A stretch of DNA of 38,095 bases from a virus. How positions within the stretch are numbered: position 1 is the stretch's first letter; every line of letters starts with the position of its first letter. The stretch lies in IMG/VR virus record IMGVR_UViG_3300041409_000269, positions 1 to 38,095 of that record. One strand, 5' to 3'. This document shows positions 3,901 to 37,087 of the stretch, piece by piece. The notes below the pieces were generated by a model. It was not told the origin of the DNA. It worked only from the letters and a program-made list of their open reading frames with translations, and ran no database searches. The translations under genes and the position numbers were made by a program.

Positions 3901-4649
3901 CCCGCCACAAGTTCGGCAAGCTCTCGCCGGCCGCGCGGCTCAACGCCGCGCTCAGTCTCGGCATCAAGGACAACGCGACGTTCATAAAGAATCTGCAGAA
4001 GCTCGCGGACCGTGGCGCAGGCGATCTTGCTAACAAGCTGCTCGCCATGGGCGGCCCGCAAGCCGAGAAGATCGCGGCAAGTGCGGTGAAGCTCAACACC
4101 TCCAAGCTCGGGAGCATCGAAAAGAAGATCGGCCAGGAGCAGGGCCAGACGGACTACATGGCGAACCTGCCGAACATCCTGACGGTCCGCTCGACGCTGA
4201 AGGGCACCAAGGGCGGCATCTCCTCGTGGGTGGCGCTCCTGGACGCGACCGGCCTCGATGCGGGGTCGCTGTCGGACGCCGTGAAGCTGATGACGAGCGA
4301 CCTGTCCAAGACGGCGAGCGGTAAAGCGCTGATCGCGGACATGCACGCCCACGGGTACGCACGCGGCGGCTCGATCGTGGGGCCGCCCGGCACCGACCGG
4401 GTGCCGATGTGGGGCACGGCCGGTGAGTACGTCATCCGCAAGGAGCCCGCCGCGGCGAACCGGCAACTGCTCGATGCCATCAACCAGGGCATCCGGGTAC
4501 CGGTCCCCGCCTCGCCGGTCATGTCCGGGGCTTCTGGTGGCGCGTCCGGCCCGGCGCAGGTGACCCAGCACAACGTTTTCCAGACCCAGGACCCGCATGT
4601 CGTCGCCCGGGAATCGGCCCGGGAAATGGCCTGGATGATGAGGGGATGA
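954..4649 (+). CDS. tape measure protein
   Basis: This 1231-residue protein, the longest in the window, sets tail length; at roughly 1.5 angstrom per residue it predicts a tail near 185 nm. The GTG start follows AGGAGGT (942-948) by five bases. An Ala/Glu/Lys-rich coiled coil covers about residues 20-155, followed by a hydrophobic Ala/Gly segment (about 163-200) that may cross the host membrane during DNA entry. Helical repeats follow, then a Gly-rich C-terminal part with two copies of the module YARGG...P(V/M)W...GEYVIR (around residues 820-870 and 1135-1165) that is common in actinobacteriophage tape measures. No peptidase or transglycosylase motif was noticed. Confidence 0.93.
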   Translation: MANRRDLHIDIDGDARGFDAACDEAEGKARGLDSELAKLERQQAAQEKVTTRTTAAVQKYAATQDKAALAARRMGLEVKRAAEQAQKAEVRAAAAAEAAAKGLFDKEKAAKLAARADDAVERAALKAAEAQLAEAAAAEKAANAERKAADAGDKHKASTVGMTGVLVSAGAAAAALAAPLGAAGLAAIGFAAVAAPSIKKVITAQTDLVTKWDTLDKGQKVAASSVHSLVGEYKDLAKSYEPDALKVFNGAVATSRQLLPQLGKTVDATKGSVADFATSLENTLGKQLPRLFTLAQTQGPQALNALGTTFDQTAQLAVGLVHDLAPMGMTLLNTANGGLRLLNMVEQINPHLVEFGVTALALRAPTQALGGLWTKNASKLSGLAKEGSKAEGLLGKLGKTVGNSPNLYIGAALAVGYVVARMATMKDSTDNLITSLRTENSAIGNNIVGHQGMANSLSKYIVAAQNAKAATMAEADARAHPAAALSKYNSEIGRLTEARKAELTAVKNINAGETNLASTYSITTDQANQLATAAGVDLSKGITGSGDAAKAAQAKVRAYYAAVQQATDPTFQVSQALSQASNNALDLKTRMTALSNAFGVLAGPELAAFDATTKTAGAFDQFDAAMKKSKGSMSLQTAAGQNSRSAFAALLSTVQENTTAQYAYDSATKGAAVAAKNRTESARQMLPVLLAEAGANKTARNAILDWATSAGVGKTRTEAMSSALGLSRDAFLRSAQGAGKSRAEALKLWAAFNKLPKVKDTRLSNNAKSQRQAVQDYQNKINNLRGKTVNIYTVMHLTETQAYANKRSNFNLKSHGGPINGYARGGNVARMADGGPSGPVVGPGSGTSDDVPVWLSNGEYVIRATQARKHKALLGSINAGTQGFASGGVLGYASGGAPSANPLALSDVLQHWQDVKSPASAADVSKAAKARRTQVDQLKNAEDALYRARRRHNPRAVAAAERRIRKERDDLAAATAHLHDVEARHKFGKLSPAARLNAALSLGIKDNATFIKNLQKLADRGAGDLANKLLAMGGPQAEKIAASAVKLNTSKLGSIEKKIGQEQGQTDYMANLPNILTVRSTLKGTKGGISSWVALLDATGLDAGSLSDAVKLMTSDLSKTASGKALIADMHAHGYARGGSIVGPPGTDRVPMWGTAGEYVIRKEPAAANRQLLDAINQGIRVPVPASPVMSGASGGASGPAQVTQHNVFQTQDPHVVARESAREMAWMMRG

Positions 4650-29628: not shown

Positions 29629-29740
29629 TGACAGGCTGTCAGGGCGTGTCGGAGTTTGACCAGCGCTGATTACATGCTGTGTAATGAGGATCTGCCCTTA
29701 ACAGACTTATGCCCAGAGCCCGGCCACCGTGCCGGGCTCT
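29629..29740 (+). terminator. end of early operon: palindromes and intrinsic-type terminator
   Basis: TGACAG-G-CTGTCA (29629-29641) and ATTACA-TGCTG-TGTAAT (about 29669-29685) are short dyads. AGAGCCCGGC (29715-29724) and GCCGGGCTCT (29731-29740) make a perfect 10-bp stem with a CACCGT loop, the probable terminator of the small-gene operon ahead of the Ntn hydrolase gene. Confidence 0.7.
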
Positions 29741-29804
29741 TCGCATGTCCGGCAAAGTGCAGCCAAAAGCTTGATGGGCGTCGAAACCGTCGGAGCGTGA
29801 TTCA

Positions 29805-30371
29805 GTGACCGCGATCGTCGGCATCGTTGCAGACGACACAGTGCACATCGGTGGAGACTCGGCGGGCGTGTCCGGCTGGTCCCTGACCGTTCGCGCGGAC
29901 TCCAAGGTGTTCACCAACGGCCCGTTCGTGATGGGCTTCACGACTTCCTTCCGCATGGGGCAGCTGCTCCGGTTCGCCCTCAAGGTGCCCGAGCCGGACG
30001 GTGACCTCGAGGCGTTTATGGCGACGACGTTCATCGATGCCGTTCGCGAGACCCTCAAATCGGGCGGATGGGCGAAGAAGGACAATGAGCGCGAGGAGGG
30101 CGGGATCTTCCTCGTCGGCGTACAGGGCCGCCTGTTTAGCGTCCAGGCGGACTATCAGGTCGCTGAGGCGGTCGACGGGTACGCCGCGATCGGCTGTGGC
30201 CAGGAGATCGCCCTGGGTGCCCTCTACGCGACGACTCGCTCGCGCAGTCCACAGAATCGCATCAAGCTCGCCCTGGAGGCGGCTGAGCGCTTCTCGGCCG
30301 GTGTGCGCGGCCCGTTCGCCTATGTCGCGACCGCGCCCGCGGGAGGCGAGTGTCGCCCCGATCAGCCGTGA
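29805..30371 (+). CDS. proteasome-beta-like Ntn (threonine) hydrolase
   Basis: A 188-residue protein from GTG 29805 with GGAG nine bases upstream. It starts Met-Thr; counting that Thr as 1 (Met is normally removed before Thr), Asp falls at 17 (GGDS) and Lys at 33 (ADSK), the exact catalytic positions of proteasome beta subunits and HslV. Later, YAAIGCGQEIALGALYAT matches the AIGSG...A-x-x-A-L segment near Ser129, and NRIKLALEAAERFSAGVRGP matches the last helix region. It may be a protease or another amidase; target unknown. It stands alone between the early terminator and a convergent lipoprotein gene and overlaps the latter by 10 bases. Confidence 0.8.
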   Translation: MTAIVGIVADDTVHIGGDSAGVSGWSLTVRADSKVFTNGPFVMGFTTSFRMGQLLRFALKVPEPDGDLEAFMATTFIDAVRETLKSGGWAKKDNEREEGGIFLVGVQGRLFSVQADYQVAEAVDGYAAIGCGQEIALGALYATTRSRSPQNRIKLALEAAERFSAGVRGPFAYVATAPAGGECRPDQP

Positions 30372-30652
30372 TAGTGCTGCTGGCACCACGCCTTGACCAG
30401 CGTCGTCGCGCCCGTCTGATCCTCACGCAGTGCAGCGTCCTGCAAGTCCCGGATAGTCGACAGCTCCGCCGACATCCTCGCCGCGAGATAGGCGCCGTCC
30501 CGCGATGACTGACAGGCCGACGTCCCCTGGTCGTCCCATGAGATCGATGCGCTGGGTGTGACCGTCACCGTCTTGGCCGGCGTCGCAGCCCCGCTCGATC
30601 CACAGCCGGCTGCGAGCAGCAGCACACCGGCAACAGCAAGTCCCTTGAGCAT
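30362..30652 (-). CDS. small lipoprotein, possible superinfection-exclusion factor
   Basis: A 96-residue protein from ATG 30652, eight bases after AGGGGAA. It has a textbook lipoprotein signal: MLKGLAVAGVLLLAAGCGSS with lipobox LAAGC, predicting an acylated Cys on the outer face of the membrane. A Thr/Ser/Ala linker and a small helical domain with two cysteines (SACQSSRDGAYLAARMSAEL ... KAWCQQHYHG) follow. It is the only minus-strand gene in this part and thus expressed independently, possibly from the prophage. Surface lipoproteins of prophages often block DNA entry of related phages. That role is inference. Confidence 0.75.
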   Translation of the reverse strand: MLKGLAVAGVLLLAAGCGSSGAATPAKTVTVTPSASISWDDQGTSACQSSRDGAYLAARMSAELSTIRDLQDAALREDQTGATTLVKAWCQQHYHG

Positions 30653-31068: not shown

Positions 31069-31356
31069 GTGCCCAGCAACGGACGGTCAGGCAGACCATG
31101 GCGCCGAGCACGAGCACAGCTGTTCGGCGAACAGCCCGACGTCTGCTGGATCTGCGGACACGGCGGCACCACCGATGCCGACCATGACCCACCGCTCGTG
31201 GTGCTCAAGGCCCTCGGCCTAGACCCCTGCGATCTGCAGTACCTACGACGTGCGCACGGTTGGCGCGGCTGCCCGACATGCGGACGCAAGTGCAACAACG
31301 AGAAAGGCAGCAAGGTCGGCTACACGCCGGCCGCTCCCGCCTCCCGACAGTGGTAG
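31069..31356 (+). CDS. HNH endonuclease
   Basis: A 95-residue protein from GTG 31069. CWICG and CPTCGRKCNNEKG provide the two zinc knuckles, and DADHDPPLVVLKALG the HNH core (D-H-D-P-P), in the spacing typical of phage HNH nucleases. Encoded directly before small terminase, it fits the HNH proteins that stimulate terminase cleavage in HK97-like phages packaging from cos sites. No ribosome-binding site is apparent; a palindrome occupies that position. Confidence 0.85.
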   Translation: MPSNGRSGRPWRRARAQLFGEQPDVCWICGHGGTTDADHDPPLVVLKALGLDPCDLQYLRRAHGWRGCPTCGRKCNNEKGSKVGYTPAAPASRQW

Positions 31357-31564: not shown

Positions 31565-31984
31565 ATGCCACCTCGTAACCGGAAGCTCGCCGCGGTTCCC
31601 GAGCAGGCCCACGACCGCGCCCCTGATCTGCGGGATGCCGTGAAGGCCGCGATCGGCAAGATGGCCTGGCTCACCGACAGCGACAAGGCGATGGCCGCGC
31701 TGGCGCTCCGGCAGGCCGAGGAGATCGAGAAGGCCGTCGATCGCGCGGACGAGCTCGACGAGCTGAAGACCGAGTTCGCCGGCGACGCGTCCATGTATAA
31801 GCGCCTGCAGAAACTCGAGGCGATGTGCGAGCTGACCAAGACGGTCGGCTGGCTTGGCCCGCAGCTGCAGGGTGTGCTCCGCGATCTCGGCGGTGCACCG
31901 GTGGCACGCAAGGCGATGCAGGCCGACAAGCCGATCGGGGGTCGACTTGCTCAGCTACGCGCCGACGCTCCTGGGGTCGACTAG
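31565..31984 (+). CDS. terS: terminase small subunit
   Basis: A 139-residue helical protein from ATG 31565 behind a near-perfect TTAGGAGGTAG. After a basic N-terminus comes a long helical central part (KMAWLTDSDKAMAALALRQA; EEIEKAVDRADELDELKTEF) and a C-terminal helix (LQKLEAMCELTKTVGWLGPQ) typical of actinobacteriophage small terminases that recognise the packaging site. The 208 bases upstream (31357-31564), where a cos or pac site is expected, show GC-rich runs but no site I can define. Confidence 0.8.
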   Translation: MPPRNRKLAAVPEQAHDRAPDLRDAVKAAIGKMAWLTDSDKAMAALALRQAEEIEKAVDRADELDELKTEFAGDASMYKRLQKLEAMCELTKTVGWLGPQLQGVLRDLGGAPVARKAMQADKPIGGRLAQLRADAPGVD

Positions 31985-33497
31985 GCCCCGGATCTTCACT
32001 CCGCCGCTGGTGACTGGCCCACCCGGTCCGTGTGGGTGTGGGTGCGCGCTGACGCCGTTGACGTCGCTGGGGTTCTCGGCGCTGGAGTTCGCGAAGAACC
32101 CGCTGGGAATCGGCCCGATTCCGTGGCAGCGCTGGCTGCTGATTCACGCTCTGGAGCTCCGACCGAACGGCATGTTCCGGTTCCGCACGGTGATCGTGCT
32201 GGTTGCGCGGCAGAACGGTAAGACGACGATCGTCGAGGTCAAGAACCTGTGGAAGATGTATGTGCTCGGCGTCCCGCTGGTCATCGGCACCGCCCAGGAC
32301 CTGGACATGGCCGAGGAGTCTTGGGACAAGGCCGTCGAGCTGGTCGAGGCGATCCCGGAACTTGACGCGGAGAAAGTCCACGTCGACCGCACGAACGGCA
32401 AGAAGGCGCTGCGCCTCGCGAACGGTTCCCGCTGGAAGATCAAGGCGGCATCCCGTAAGGGCGGCCGTGGCCTGTCCGGCGACGACGTCAACCTCGACGA
32501 GCTCCGCGAGCATCACACCTGGGATTCATGGGGCGCGGTCACCAAGACGACGATGGCCCGTAAGAACGCGCAGATCTGGGCGTTCTCGAACGCGGGGGAT
32601 GCCCGCTCGGTGGTGCTGAACAGCCTGCAGAAGCAGGGTCGCGCGGCTGCTAAGCACCCGGAGAGCGCAGACCTGACACTCGGCCATTTCGAGTGGAGCG
32701 CGCCCGATGACATCAAATGCACCTGCGGCCGGCCCGAGAACACCCACACCGCGGACTGTCGACTGCGGGACCCGATGGCCCGTGCACAGGCGAACCCGAG
32801 CCTCGGCTACCTCATCACCGACGAGGCGCTCGACTCGGCGCTGACCACAGACCCGGAAGTGATCTACCGGACCGAGTGCCTGTGCCAGCGGGTCCCGGAC
32901 ATGCGCCCGGACTGGGTGGTTATCACCGAGCAGGCGTGGCGGGACCTGGCCGACGTGGAATCGCAGGCCGCAGGTCGGGTGGCGTTCGGCGTCGACGCCA
33001 CCCCGGGCGGCACACACGCAGCGATCGGCGTGGCCGGCGTCCGCGAGGACGGCCACGGGCACAGCGAGCTGATCGACCACCGCCGTGGTACCGGCTGGGT
33101 CCTCGCCCGCGCTCTGCAGCTTGACGAGCGGTGGGATCCGGTCGGCTGGGTGATCGATCCCCGCGGCCCGGCAGGGTTCCTGATCAAGGACTTTGAGGAC
33201 GCCGGCCTGACGGTCATCAAGACCTCGGCGGGCGACGTCGCCGACGCGACGGGCTCGATCATCGCCGCGACGGGCGCCGCGGAGGGCAACAAGCCGTCGA
33301 TGCGGTACGTCCCGAACCCGGCGCTGGACGCCGCGGTGGCGGGCGCTGACACGGCCCCGCTGGGCGACGGCCGGAAATGGAACCGACGTCTGCCGACAAC
33401 TGACATCTCGCCGCTGGTGGCGATCACGCTGGCCCGCCACGGGTTGGCGACCTACGTCGAGGAGCTGCCGATGGTGCCGTTCGGGGTGTACGCATGA
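31947..33497 (+). CDS. terL: terminase large subunit
   Basis: A 516-residue protein if TTG 31947 (GGGGGT upstream) is used; it then overlaps small terminase by 38 bases. The ATPase domain has the HK97-type Walker A ARQNGKT (after VIVLV) and Walker B VNLDELREH. The nuclease domain begins about residue 345 (VAFGVDATPGGTHAAIGVAG, then IDPRGPAGFLI), with the expected Asp residues. It cuts and pumps DNA into the prohead through the portal encoded two genes downstream. Confidence 0.93.
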   Translation: MLSYAPTLLGSTRPRIFTPPLVTGPPGPCGCGCALTPLTSLGFSALEFAKNPLGIGPIPWQRWLLIHALELRPNGMFRFRTVIVLVARQNGKTTIVEVKNLWKMYVLGVPLVIGTAQDLDMAEESWDKAVELVEAIPELDAEKVHVDRTNGKKALRLANGSRWKIKAASRKGGRGLSGDDVNLDELREHHTWDSWGAVTKTTMARKNAQIWAFSNAGDARSVVLNSLQKQGRAAAKHPESADLTLGHFEWSAPDDIKCTCGRPENTHTADCRLRDPMARAQANPSLGYLITDEALDSALTTDPEVIYRTECLCQRVPDMRPDWVVITEQAWRDLADVESQAAGRVAFGVDATPGGTHAAIGVAGVREDGHGHSELIDHRRGTGWVLARALQLDERWDPVGWVIDPRGPAGFLIKDFEDAGLTVIKTSAGDVADATGSIIAATGAAEGNKPSMRYVPNPALDAAVAGADTAPLGDGRKWNRRLPTTDISPLVAITLARHGLATYVEELPMVPFGVYA

Positions 33498-33739
33498 CGA
33501 CCGCGGTGTTCGCCAAGGCGGGCCGGATGGCTGACCAGGTCCGCGAGGAGTCCCGCCAGCTCGACCCGGTGAAGGTCGTGCTGACCGTGCTCATGGTGGT
33601 GCCGTTCGTGCTCGGCTGGACGGTCGGGAAGCTGGCGCGCGGTGCGTGGCTGGTGGTGGCGTGGACGTGGACCGCCGCGGTCGTGGGCTGGCGCACCGCG
33701 CAGGCCCGGAGTCCGGAGGAGCCCGATGGGGCTTCTTGA
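33494..33739 (+). CDS. small membrane protein between terminase and portal (81 aa)
   Basis: The ATG overlaps the terminase stop (ATGA). Residues 28-45 (VVLTVLMVVPFVLGWTVG) and 50-66 (GAWLVVAWTWTAAVVGW) are two membrane helices with an amphipathic N-terminus. Similar two-helix proteins sit at this position in several actinobacteriophages; function unknown. Its end overlaps the portal start by 14 bases. Confidence 0.7.
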   Translation: MTTAVFAKAGRMADQVREESRQLDPVKVVLTVLMVVPFVLGWTVGKLARGAWLVVAWTWTAAVVGWRTAQARSPEEPDGAS

Positions 33740-35117
33740 GCGCGTCGCCGCGGCGCGTAGCCCGGCCCACCGTAAGAGCTGGTCCGAGCCTCCGATCTGG
33801 GATGCGGAGCGGTTCCGGTACGGCCTGTACGGCATGCCTTCCTCGCCGGCGTACAGCGACCGCGAGCTGATCGAGTCGGACTTCCAGGGCTACGTCGAGG
33901 GCATCTATAAGCGGAACGGCGCCGTCGCCGCGCTGCTGTTCGTCCGCCAGATGGTGTTCTCCGAGGCGCGGTTTCAGTACCGGCGGATGAACAACGGCAG
34001 GCCCGGCGACCTGTTCGGCACTGCGGACCTCGCGCTGCTCGAGGAGCCGTGGCCGAACGCGACGACCGGCGACCTGCTGACGCGGATGATCGGCGACGCG
34101 GACCTGGCCGGTAACGCCTACTTCACGGTGGTCGGCGAGGGCGCGAATCGACGTATCCGCCGGCTCCGCCCGGACTGGGTCACGATCGTGTCCGGCTCGC
34201 GGTCCGAACCGAGCCTGTACGGCGCGGCCCTCGATGCCGAGCTGCTCGGCTACATCTACAGCCCGCGGACGCCCGGGGCAGGCACGACAGAGGGCACGAT
34301 CCTGACGCCGGACCAGGTCGCGCACTTCGCGCCGATCCCGGACCCGATAGCGAACTGGCGCGGCATGTCGTGGCTTACGCCCGTGCTGCGCGAGGTCTCC
34401 GCCGACTCGGCCGCCACGCTGCACAAGCTCAAGTTCTTCGAGAACGGCGCGTCGCTGCAGGTCGTCGTCAGCGTGGACGCGGCGGTAAAGAAGCCGGACT
34501 TCGATCGGTTCGTCGCGGCGATGGAGGAGCAGCACAAGGGCGCTGACAACGCGTACCGGACGCTGTACCTCGGCGGCGGCGCGGACGCCACGGTGGTCGG
34601 CGCCGACATGAAACAGCTCGACTTCAAGGCCACGCAGGGTGCGGGCGAGTCCCGCCTGGCCGCCGCCGCCGGCGTGCCCTCGGTGATCGTGGGCTTCTCC
34701 GAGGGCCTGCAGGGCAGCTCGCTGAACGCCGGGAACTACGCCTCGTCTCGCCGCCGGTTCGCTGACGGCACGCTGCGTCCGCTGTGGCGCAACGCTGCGG
34801 GCTCACTCGCCACGCTGGTGTCCGTGCAGGGCGGTGCCGCGCTCTGGTACGACGACCGCGACATCGCGTTCCTGCGCGAGGACCGCAAGGACGCTGCGGA
34901 GATCCAGGGCGCACAGGCGCAGACGATCCGCACGCTCGTCGATGCCGGTTACGAGCCGGCGTCGGTCGTCGCCGCCGTCGAGGCCGAGGACTACCGCCTG
35001 CTGAAGCACACCGGCTACTACAGCGTGCAACTGCAGGAGCTCGGCGCCGGCACCGCCCCGAACGCCAACCCGGCGCCACCGCCGGCGCTACCGACACCCC
35101 CCGCTGGAGGGCAGTGA
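33726..35117 (+). CDS. portal protein (HK97 family)
   Basis: A 463-residue protein from ATG 33726 with GGAGGAG five bases upstream. The sequence follows the HK97-type portal pattern: early YVEGIYKRNGAVAALLFVRQ, DLLTRMIGDADLAGNAYFTV, HFAPIPDPIANWRGMSWLTP, TLHKLKFFENGASLQVVVSV, then GVPSVIVGFSEGLQGSSLNA. The C-terminus is Pro/Ala-rich. It forms the ring through which DNA enters and leaves the capsid. The stop overlaps the protease start as TGATG. Confidence 0.93.
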   Translation: MGLLERVAAARSPAHRKSWSEPPIWDAERFRYGLYGMPSSPAYSDRELIESDFQGYVEGIYKRNGAVAALLFVRQMVFSEARFQYRRMNNGRPGDLFGTADLALLEEPWPNATTGDLLTRMIGDADLAGNAYFTVVGEGANRRIRRLRPDWVTIVSGSRSEPSLYGAALDAELLGYIYSPRTPGAGTTEGTILTPDQVAHFAPIPDPIANWRGMSWLTPVLREVSADSAATLHKLKFFENGASLQVVVSVDAAVKKPDFDRFVAAMEEQHKGADNAYRTLYLGGGADATVVGADMKQLDFKATQGAGESRLAAAAGVPSVIVGFSEGLQGSSLNAGNYASSRRRFADGTLRPLWRNAAGSLATLVSVQGGAALWYDDRDIAFLREDRKDAAEIQGAQAQTIRTLVDAGYEPASVVAAVEAEDYRLLKHTGYYSVQLQELGAGTAPNANPAPPPALPTPPAGGQ

Positions 35118-35824
35118 TGGACACCAAGAGCCTCCGCGTGGAGGTGAAGGACGCCGCCAAGGGCGAGGTTACGGCCGTGTTCTCGACGTTCGATGTCGTC
35201 GACTCGGACATGGACGTGACGAAGCCCGGTGCGTTCACCGACGGCTCGCCCGTGCTGATCTCCGCCTACGGACACTCGTCGTGGGATGGGGCGCTGCCGG
35301 TCGGCAAGGGCGTCATCCGGGCCGGTTCCAAGGAAGCCGTCCTCGACGGCCAGTTCTTCATGAGCACCGCGGCCGGCAAGGACACGTTCGAGGCCGTCAA
35401 GGAGCTCGGCGAGTTGGGCCAGTGGTCCTACGGCTACGACGCCACGAAGTACTCCTTCGGCGAGCACGACGGGAAGCCGGTCCGCTTCCTGGAGGAACTG
35501 AAGGTCCACGAGGTTTCCCCGGTGCTTCTCGGCGCCGGGGTCGGTACGCGGACGCTGTCCGCCAAAAGCCATCTGAAGTTCGCCGACGAGGGCGAGGCGG
35601 TCCTGGCCGCCCTTGCCCAGTTCGGTGTGAGAGCCGCTGACGTCATGGCGATGCGGCGCGAAAAAGGCAAGGGGCTGAGCCCGGAATCCACCGGGCTGAT
35701 CGAGCAGATCGAGGCGGAGCTAAAGCGGCTCGCCGAGGTGCTCACCGAACCGGCACCCGAGCCGGACGTCACGGACGACCTGACCCGCGAATGGCTGCGG
35801 TCGATCGCCCGAAACATCGCCTGA
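35117..35824 (+). CDS. prohead maturation protease (HK97 gp4 / S78-like)
   Basis: A 235-residue protein from ATG 35117 (GGAGGG upstream). It has the herpes/HK97 protease signatures: FSTFDVVDSDMDVTKPGAF, catalytic His in AYGHSSWDGALPVGKG, and catalytic Ser in LKVHEVSPVLLGAGVGTRTL. It would remove the capsid protein's N-terminal scaffold. The C-terminal helices (LIEQIEAELKRLAEVLTEPA) may bind inside the prohead. Directly precedes the capsid gene. Confidence 0.92.
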   Translation: MDTKSLRVEVKDAAKGEVTAVFSTFDVVDSDMDVTKPGAFTDGSPVLISAYGHSSWDGALPVGKGVIRAGSKEAVLDGQFFMSTAAGKDTFEAVKELGELGQWSYGYDATKYSFGEHDGKPVRFLEELKVHEVSPVLLGAGVGTRTLSAKSHLKFADEGEAVLAALAQFGVRAADVMAMRREKGKGLSPESTGLIEQIEAELKRLAEVLTEPAPEPDVTDDLTREWLRSIARNIA

Positions 35825-35839
35825 CAAGGAGAAACAGAG

Positions 35840-37087
35840 ATGACGATGACCTTTCCCGCGCTGACCGAGGCGCAGGGCAAGCTCGACACCGCCCGGAAGG
35901 CGCTCAAGGGCGTCTTCGATGAGGCCGGCGACACCCTGGACATGTCCAAGGTGAAGTCGGTCGACGGTGACTCGGCCGCGAAGGTCGAGTGGATCCGCAC
36001 GAAGAACGCCGAGATCGACGCCTACGCCAAGGAGGTCGAGGGCTTCGAGGTAGTCGCCAAGGCCGCCGAGGGCGTGAAGGCCGCCGAGACCGAGGCCGAG
36101 GCCAAGGCGAAGGGCGCCGAGTCCGGCGACGACCGCAAGGGCAAGCGCGAGGACGGGACCAAGTCCCTCGGCGAGCTGTTCACTGAGTCGCAGGCGTTCA
36201 AGGGCCGTCGCGGCACCGAGGCGCACCTGGACACCGAGCTCAAGACCGTGTTCTCGACCGGCGCGGGCTGGCTGCCGGAGACGTTCCGTACCGGGAAGGT
36301 CGTGGAGTTCGCGACCCGCCCGATCCAGGTGATCGACCTGATCCCGCCGAACACCACGAACCAGGCCGCAGTCGTTTATATGGAGGAAACCACCTACACG
36401 AACAACGCGGCCGAGACCAACGAGTCCGTGCAGGGCACCCCGGGCACCTTCCCGGAGTCGGCGCTCGGCCTGACCGAGAAGTCCAGCCAGGTCCGCAAGA
36501 TCGCCACGTGGCTGCCCGTCACCGACGAGCAGCTCGAGGACGAGACGCAGGCCCGCGGCTACGTCAACAACCGCCTGCCGTTCATGCTGCGGCAGCGCCT
36601 GGACTCCCAGATCCTGGTCGGGGACGGCGCCGCGCCGAACCTGCGCGGCTTCCTCAACGTGGCCGGTATCCAGACGCAGGCCAAGGGCACCGACCCTACG
36701 CCGGACGCGATCTACAAGGCCATGGTGCTCGTGCAGACCACCGGCCAGGCCATGCCGAACGCGGTCATCATGAACCCGCTGGACTGGCAGGACGTTCGCC
36801 TGCTCCGCACCGCTGACGGCATCTACATCTGGGGTTCGCCCAGTGACGCCGGCCCGTCGCGGATCTGGGGCCTGCCGGTCGCGCAGTCCCAGGCGCTCAC
36901 GCAGAACACCGGCCTGGTGCTCGACACCAGCTTCACCGAGTTGACCACCCGGCGCGGCATCGACGTGCAGGTCTCGAACAGTCACTCGACGTTCTTCGTC
37001 GAGGGCAAGCAGGCCGTCCGCGCGGACATGCGCGTCGCGCTGGTCGTGTACCGGCCGTCCGCTGTCTGCACGGTGACCGGTATCTGA
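35840..37087 (+). CDS. major capsid protein (HK97 fold) with scaffold domain
   Basis: A 415-residue protein from ATG 35840 behind AAGGAGAAA. Residues about 1-105 are a charged coiled-coil delta domain (IDAYAKEVEGFEVVAKAAEG...), expected to be cut off by the upstream protease. The HK97 core follows (LPETFRTGKVVEFATRPIQV, VIDLIPPNTTNQAAVVYMEE, KIATWLPVTDEQLEDETQAR, QILVGDGAAPNLRGFLNVAG, and a final RADMRVALVVYRP strand). It builds the icosahedral shell. Confidence 0.95.
   Translation: MTMTFPALTEAQGKLDTARKALKGVFDEAGDTLDMSKVKSVDGDSAAKVEWIRTKNAEIDAYAKEVEGFEVVAKAAEGVKAAETEAEAKAKGAESGDDRKGKREDGTKSLGELFTESQAFKGRRGTEAHLDTELKTVFSTGAGWLPETFRTGKVVEFATRPIQVIDLIPPNTTNQAAVVYMEETTYTNNAAETNESVQGTPGTFPESALGLTEKSSQVRKIATWLPVTDEQLEDETQARGYVNNRLPFMLRQRLDSQILVGDGAAPNLRGFLNVAGIQTQAKGTDPTPDAIYKAMVLVQTTGQAMPNAVIMNPLDWQDVRLLRTADGIYIWGSPSDAGPSRIWGLPVAQSQALTQNTGLVLDTSFTELTTRRGIDVQVSNSHSTFFVEGKQAVRADMRVALVVYRPSAVCTVTGI

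Follow-up and report, generated by a model that had tools for sequence, protein, structure and literature searches.

The window, the whole stretch of 38,095 bases that was analysed, is an IMG/VR record with an integrase gene and a GC content of 67%. Its genes run from tail through lysogeny and early to head, an order that suggests a nearly complete, circularly permuted phage. The terminase large subunit (TerL) finds its phage-record matches mostly in actinobacteriophages (of Mycobacterium, Gordonia, Microbacterium and Arthrobacter), and a stretch of the portal protein resembles that of Rhodococcus phage REQ1 at 72%. No TerL relatives at E 1e-120 were found in 396 sampled Actinomycetota genomes, an absence from which nothing is inferred.

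The gene considered here encodes a proteasome homolog of the AAH type. It lies outside the head cassette, about 1.2 kb upstream of the gene for the terminase small subunit (TerS), on the same strand as the late genes (Table 1). The open reading frame described in an earlier sequence-only reading is present there, with the strand, length, start codon and ribosome-binding site listed in the table. Its GC3 of 0.84 is typical for the genes of the window, and purifying selection is indicated by a dN/dS of ~0.2 against its nearest relatives. A terminator-like hairpin precedes the gene, and a convergent gene overlaps its stop codon. The product of the latter is lipoprotein-like (96 aa; MLKGLAVAGVLLLAAGC...), possibly a moron expressed in lysogeny, such as a superinfection-exclusion lipoprotein.

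Table 1. Coordinates of the AAH gene, its signals, its conserved codons and the neighbouring genes in the window
Feature	Position	Strand	Remarks
GC hairpin, terminator-like, without a long T run	29709..29746	+	arms 29709-29724 and 29731-29746; z -3.35; in the gap between the preceding early gene and AAH
GGAG ribosome-binding site	29792..29795	+	9 nt 5' of the start codon; basis: sequence
AAH-type proteasome homolog	29805..30371	+	188 aa; GTG start; basis: ORF, PHROG_1040, tree, fold
Thr1 codon, nucleophile once Met is removed	29808..29810	+	Thr in 168/169 relatives, Ser in 1
Asp17 codon	29856..29858	+	169/169 relatives
Lys33 codon	29904..29906	+	169/169 relatives
Gly43 codon, counterpart of oxyanion-hole Gly47	29934..29936	+	169/169 relatives; assigned by alignment
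Gly-Cys-Gly, Ser129-region counterpart with Ser -> Cys	30192..30200	+	both flanking Gly invariant
Small lipoprotein gene, convergent	30362..30652	-	lipobox LLAAGC; 10-bp overlap with AAH stop; basis: sequence
HNH endonuclease	31069..31356	+	phrog_589
Probable terminase small subunit	31565..31984	+	immediately precedes TerL; TerL relatives have a homologous gene
Terminase large subunit, start uncertain	31974..33497	+	phrog_9, 4.6e-74
Portal protein	33726..35117	+	profile matches
Head maturation (prohead) protease	35114..35824	+	phrog_80; conserved His and Ser
Major capsid protein (MCP)	35840..37087	+	phrog_10

Fold, catalytic residues and family assignment

The AlphaFold2 model of the protein (88 sequences; mean pLDDT 94.3) has the strand and helix order of a proteasome-like Ntn fold, with the alpha-beta-beta-alpha arrangement of the superfamily. 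Four helices (residues 49-58, 68-86, 133-142 and 149-163) are followed by a last strand at 172-175, past which nothing is ordered; there is no propeptide, the threonine coming directly after the methionine, and strands 20-23 and 26-29 are linked by a short turn without an insertion. Among solved structures, the best match is the betaproteobacterial proteasome homolog BPH (Z 21.0 over 173 residues, 2.6 A), followed by HslV (19.9) and the Mycobacterium tuberculosis proteasome beta subunit (18.7). A profile of 98 relatives searched against the PDB gives HslV (6e-10), BPH (1e-8) and actinobacterial proteasome beta (5e-6). The PHROG_1040 profile, named 'peptidase HslV family', matches the window protein at 1.1e-21. 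By themselves, Pfam and NCBIfam fail to recognise it: the Pfam Proteasome model scores 11.9 bits, below its gathering cut-off of 22.4, and no HslV family appears among the NCBIfam matches.

The sequence-only reading had described an intact Thr1/Asp17/Lys33 set at the exact proteasome beta positions once the initiator methionine is removed. This is borne out, and the three residues are near-invariant in 169 relatives; as judged from the sequences, the match to the proteasome beta positions is not due to chance. All 169 aligned relatives have Gly129 and Gly131, and 168 have Arg49. The collection scans used N-terminus and SFR motif patterns, so that the counts are biased at Thr1, around Gly43 and in part of the stretch around Asp17; Lys33 and Gly129/131 lie outside the search patterns and are thus free of this selection bias. 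The Ser129-region motif, also claimed at the outset, stands in part. The Gly-x-Gly frame is retained, but the serine itself is replaced by cysteine, which is the family norm (Cys in 135 of the 169 relatives, Ser in 24).

A threonine at position 2 makes a protein a substrate of methionine aminopeptidase. Because the window protein carries this residue, and because removal of the methionine in the related BPH has been demonstrated by mass spectrometry (PMC5777263), the same processing is expected, by analogy, here. From the fold and from BPH, it may be supposed that the host methionine aminopeptidase removes the initiator methionine and exposes Thr1, which Asp17 and Lys33 would activate; that the subunits probably form closed rings like those of BPH and HslV; and that such rings would act on small or unfolded proteins without a dedicated unfoldase.

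The predicted fold, the sequence and its conservation all support the proposal of a proteasome-like hydrolase with an Ntn fold, its activity being a prediction. Activity must not be assumed, since BPH is inert on standard substrates although it binds epoxomicin (PMC5777263). It may be that the protein is an Ntn enzyme with a narrow non-proteolytic reaction, for example connectase-like peptide-bond transfer or hydrolysis of a small-molecule amide. The proteasome-like family does include the ligase connectase (PMC8665760), and the inactivity of BPH on standard peptides (PMC5777263) is compatible with such a role. However, the insertion between strands 3 and 4 of connectase is missing in the model, and the nearest structures are those of BPH, HslV and the 20S beta subunit PrcB, which leaves this alternative improbable.

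AAH is among the 22 families that Fuchs, Alva & Lupas set out in 2021 (PMC8665760). The relatives of the window protein are alpha-proteobacterial, actinobacterial and phage proteins; Thr1, Asp17, Lys33 and the oxyanion glycine are present; and the model is of the compact group I type, with helices H1-H4 and without a propeptide or S12/H5. On this taxonomic range, the motif and the predicted fold, the window protein belongs with AAH.

Several other identities were considered and rejected. A 20S beta subunit (PrcB) is contradicted by the sub-threshold Pfam score and by the missing propeptide and C-terminal helix 5, and the curated HslV models of NCBIfam give no match. PPH (phage proteasome homolog) has ~140 residues and lacks H2, whereas the window protein has 188 residues and two helices before the central strands. 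Connectase has a helical insertion between strands 3 and 4 that is missing in the model.

Relatives in phages and bacterial chromosomes

The closest bacterial proteins come from Actinomadura (81% over the aligned part), Dactylosporangium, Plantactinospora, Actinoplanes and Streptomyces, followed by those of Rhizobium, Mesorhizobium and Azospirillum. In a maximum-likelihood tree, the window falls in a mostly actinobacterial clade of 61 rows with support of 97/81, the bootstrap of the tree being not fully settled. The clade consists of 50 non-prophage bacterial rows, eight IMG/VR contigs, two prophage-like loci and the window, and all bacterial organisms named in the window's part of the tree drawing are Actinomycetota. 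A single-sequence scan of IMG/VR gave no match, and an alignment-based scan was required to find relatives there; five contigs (L013 to L017) encode AAHs 63-72% identical to that of the window. In two Streptomyces prophages (L111 and L114), AAH lies a short way upstream of TerS and TerL, and their AAHs nest in a Streptomyces clade (100/99) otherwise made up of chromosomal genes. Tree and synteny together support exchange of AAH between phages and actinobacterial chromosomes. The gene is rare: at 1e-20, a match was found in one of the 396 sampled Actinomycetota genomes, namely the Actinomadura genome used as centre.

The nearest phage-record match is that of Moorella phage MTATph1 (55%). Divergent PHROG_1040 proteins are also found in actinophages, namely Actinomycetia phage DSL-LC01 (29%), Microbacterium phage Lifes (gp14) and the Gordonia phages DatBoi and SpeedDemon, those of Lifes and the Gordonia phages with 'protease' in their records; the Lifes, DatBoi and DSL-LC01 proteins are confirmed by a PHROG_1040 match. 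A proteasome-like protein is therefore no novelty in an actinophage; what the window has is a close AAH, and actinophage AAHs are now supplied by the window, several related IMG/VR contigs and the two Streptomyces prophages.

Some family members have features worth recording in their own right. Lifes gp14, a 'protease' (MT818426, L214; 4300-4830; PHROG_1040 at 1.7e-29), loses the Thr1 region at its annotated start of 4336; the homologous start would be at 4300, where a GGAGAG ribosome-binding site precedes a non-standard codon of the Ile type. The annotated start (4043) of the MTATph1 gene (L001; 4001-4558) likewise omits the conserved N terminus, and a TTG at 4001, with Thr next, restores the family match. 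A second AAH-like gene lies downstream of AAH, adjoining or near it, in four loci (L118, L120, L121 and L122; 131 aa in Rhizobium), and a viral contig (L091) has one of 192 aa two genes upstream; such pairs suggest hetero-oligomers or a regulatory paralog. In five Dactylosporangium loci (L094, L095, L097, L098 and L099), the gene after AAH resembles DUF1028, which we take to be possibly another Ntn-type fold. Large plasmids of Rhizobium and Sinorhizobium carry AAH, and in the fetched Rhizobium loci it occurs in conserved order near NifH-like and prolyl-oligopeptidase-like genes, so named from a look at their sequences. In the jumbo phage Escherichia phage 121Q (L012; 3065-4597), a small proteolysis-related cluster has the PHROG_1040 gene two genes downstream of a ClpP-like protease gene and ahead of a Sir2-like one.

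A role in host takeover or counter-defence has also been weighed, in which AAH would degrade host proteins or would join or inhibit the host 20S proteasome. T5-like and other large phages carry the gene among early or nucleotide-metabolism genes, in large lytic phages beside thymidylate synthase, DHFR, RNR or PhoH, and seven AAH-bearing actinobacterial genomes also have genes for 20S subunits, and in all seven two of these genes are neighbours. Against this, AAH is nearer to BPH and HslV than to PrcB in both sequence and fold, a PADLOC search gave no match, and the family is common in proteobacterial phages. Proteobacterial hosts generally lack a 20S proteasome. Such a role is thus quite doubtful. 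Three roles had been offered at the outset: a separate peptidase, a protein that joins or poisons the host 20S particle, and an enzyme that matures a phage protein. The second is opposed by the nearness to BPH and HslV, by the lack of a propeptide and C-terminal helix, and by the many proteobacterial phages with the gene; a separate peptidase fits best. The third may apply, but the window already encodes a prohead protease with the conserved His and Ser.

Head-gene context and proposed role

Among 80 viral loci, AAH directly adjoins a head or packaging gene in 29 and has head genes on both sides within three genes in 21. After collapse at 85% identity, 22 of 64 AAH groups are head-adjacent, against 5.9 expected under a rough null that places a gene randomly in a phage of the given size; 16 of the groups lie inside the cassette. 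The HMMs for head genes were derived from the neighbours of AAH, and head genes were named via PHROGs for representatives; the main portal, protease, TerL and MCP clusters contain PHROG-named window genes or were recognised by sequence and order. The arrangements include TerL-AAH-portal-protease-MCP (L019, L027 and L059), portal-AAH-protease-MCP (L025, L050 and L074), portal-AAH-protease (L034 and L084), TerL-AAH-protease (L052, L089 and the bacterial locus L168), TerS-AAH-x-TerL (L038 and L066), and portal-AAH in a cassette of a different type (L014). AAH shares the strand of the head genes in nearly all cassette loci and has 4-bp overlaps with a neighbour, portal and prohead-protease genes among them, in four (L050, L052, L074 and L084). 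None of the MazG control loci lies beside a head gene, but this is a weak control, the loci being mostly from one phage group whose genes the head HMMs may miss; a methylase control yielded no loci. No AAA+ gene was found to recur beside AAH, most neighbour clusters being without annotation.

Because AAH sits in or beside the head or packaging operon in many phages, protein processing or clean-up during head assembly, alongside the canonical prohead protease, would be its most likely job, a tentative preference short of an even chance. A more specific form, judged somewhat unlikely, is that of a virion-assembly protease, a proteasome-type chamber beside the prohead protease that would remove scaffold, released peptides or misfolded portal or capsid subunits; if it is true, phages would have recruited the proteasome fold for building capsids.

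The frequent placement between portal and MCP genes might also indicate that AAH replaces the canonical prohead protease. However, a head maturation protease is present both in the window and in the other HK97-type head cassettes that carry AAH. Wherever the alignment covers the site, the proteases of AAH phages, that of the window included, keep their His and Ser; the rows for L019, L027, L028, L030, L065 and one of two for L034 are truncated, misaligned or a capsid gene, and are uninformative. AAH is therefore not a replacement for the prohead protease, nor a stand-in for a dead one, an idea left with hardly any probability.

For the window itself, the head role is borrowed by analogy from its relatives, since its AAH lies upstream of the cassette; the position, the hairpin and the convergent lipoprotein gene also fit a self-standing accessory gene. 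No AAH was found with 41 TerL relatives from IMG/VR in the stretches fetched, many of them fragments with little upstream sequence. In another locus (L176), primase, HNH, TerS and TerL follow one another as in the window but without AAH; where the window has AAH and the lipoprotein gene there is a small gene that resembles none of the window's genes, and there is a GC palindrome in the equivalent region. The TerL relatives and the order in L176 support the status of AAH as an accessory gene.

A moron is accordingly a serious rival to the head role. As a case of lysogenic conversion, an active AAH peptidase of actinobacterial chromosomal origin, with its own promoter in the lysogen, would serve host protein quality control and not virion assembly. 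The strong hairpin just upstream, the convergent gene over the stop codon, the sporadic presence of AAH among the TerL relatives and the nearest relative, a non-phage chromosomal gene of Actinomadura, all point this way. Yet the gene is on the strand of the late genes, a simple sigma-70 motif scan found no promoter for it, and many other phages have AAH inside the head operon with 4-bp overlaps, which is unusual for morons. The moron role is rated unlikely. The protein is best read as a self-compartmentalising threonine peptidase with an accessory function, which many phages express together with their head genes; its identity and peptidase activity, with a late accessory function as the favoured role, are together reasonably probable.

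Comparison with known systems

The actinobacterial 20S beta subunit PrcB shares with AAH the fold (Z 18.7) and the catalytic triad. The window protein differs in being shorter, in lacking a propeptide, a C-terminal helix and a PrcA partner, and in its sub-threshold match to Pfam Proteasome. HslV (ClpQ) has the same fold (Z 19.9), Thr1/Lys33 spacing and Gly-x-Gly motif, but is 16-23% identical to the window AAH, which the curated HslV models do not match. There is no HslU-like match among the 19 window genes scanned, a subset of its genes, and the host could supply HslU.

BPH (PDB 5OVS/5OVT/5OVU), the best structural match, shares with AAH a Thr1 beside the start methionine and apparently works without an unfoldase. 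The two are ~22% identical, and Lys37 and Ser139 of BPH stand against Lys33 and Cys130 of AAH. PHROG_1040 is matched by all 98 aligned relatives of the window protein but is broader: most of its phage-record members, for example those of T5-like and Vibrio phages, are ~26-36% identical to it.

The closest system is AAH itself (PMC8665760), with the same range of relatives, a compact group I fold, Thr1/Asp17/Lys33/Gly, and neither a propeptide nor C-terminal helix 5. The 2021 survey found AAH in many phages, with an uninformative genomic context and unknown function, and reported it absent from actinobacteria-specific phages (PMC8665760). The window copy is in an actinophage and head-operon placement is frequent, neither of which was in the survey. 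The window protein is thus a new member of a known family in a host group reported as without it; it fills the gap stated for Actinobacteria phages and lends support to exchange between phages and chromosomes in that group. Searches of the literature turned up neither a functional nor a virion-proteome study on any AAH protein, and the linkage to head operons is a new context for a family whose description gave no function, no partner and no informative gene neighbourhood. Since this placement is repeated across several unrelated cassette types with overlapping genes, the function of AAH becomes directly testable.
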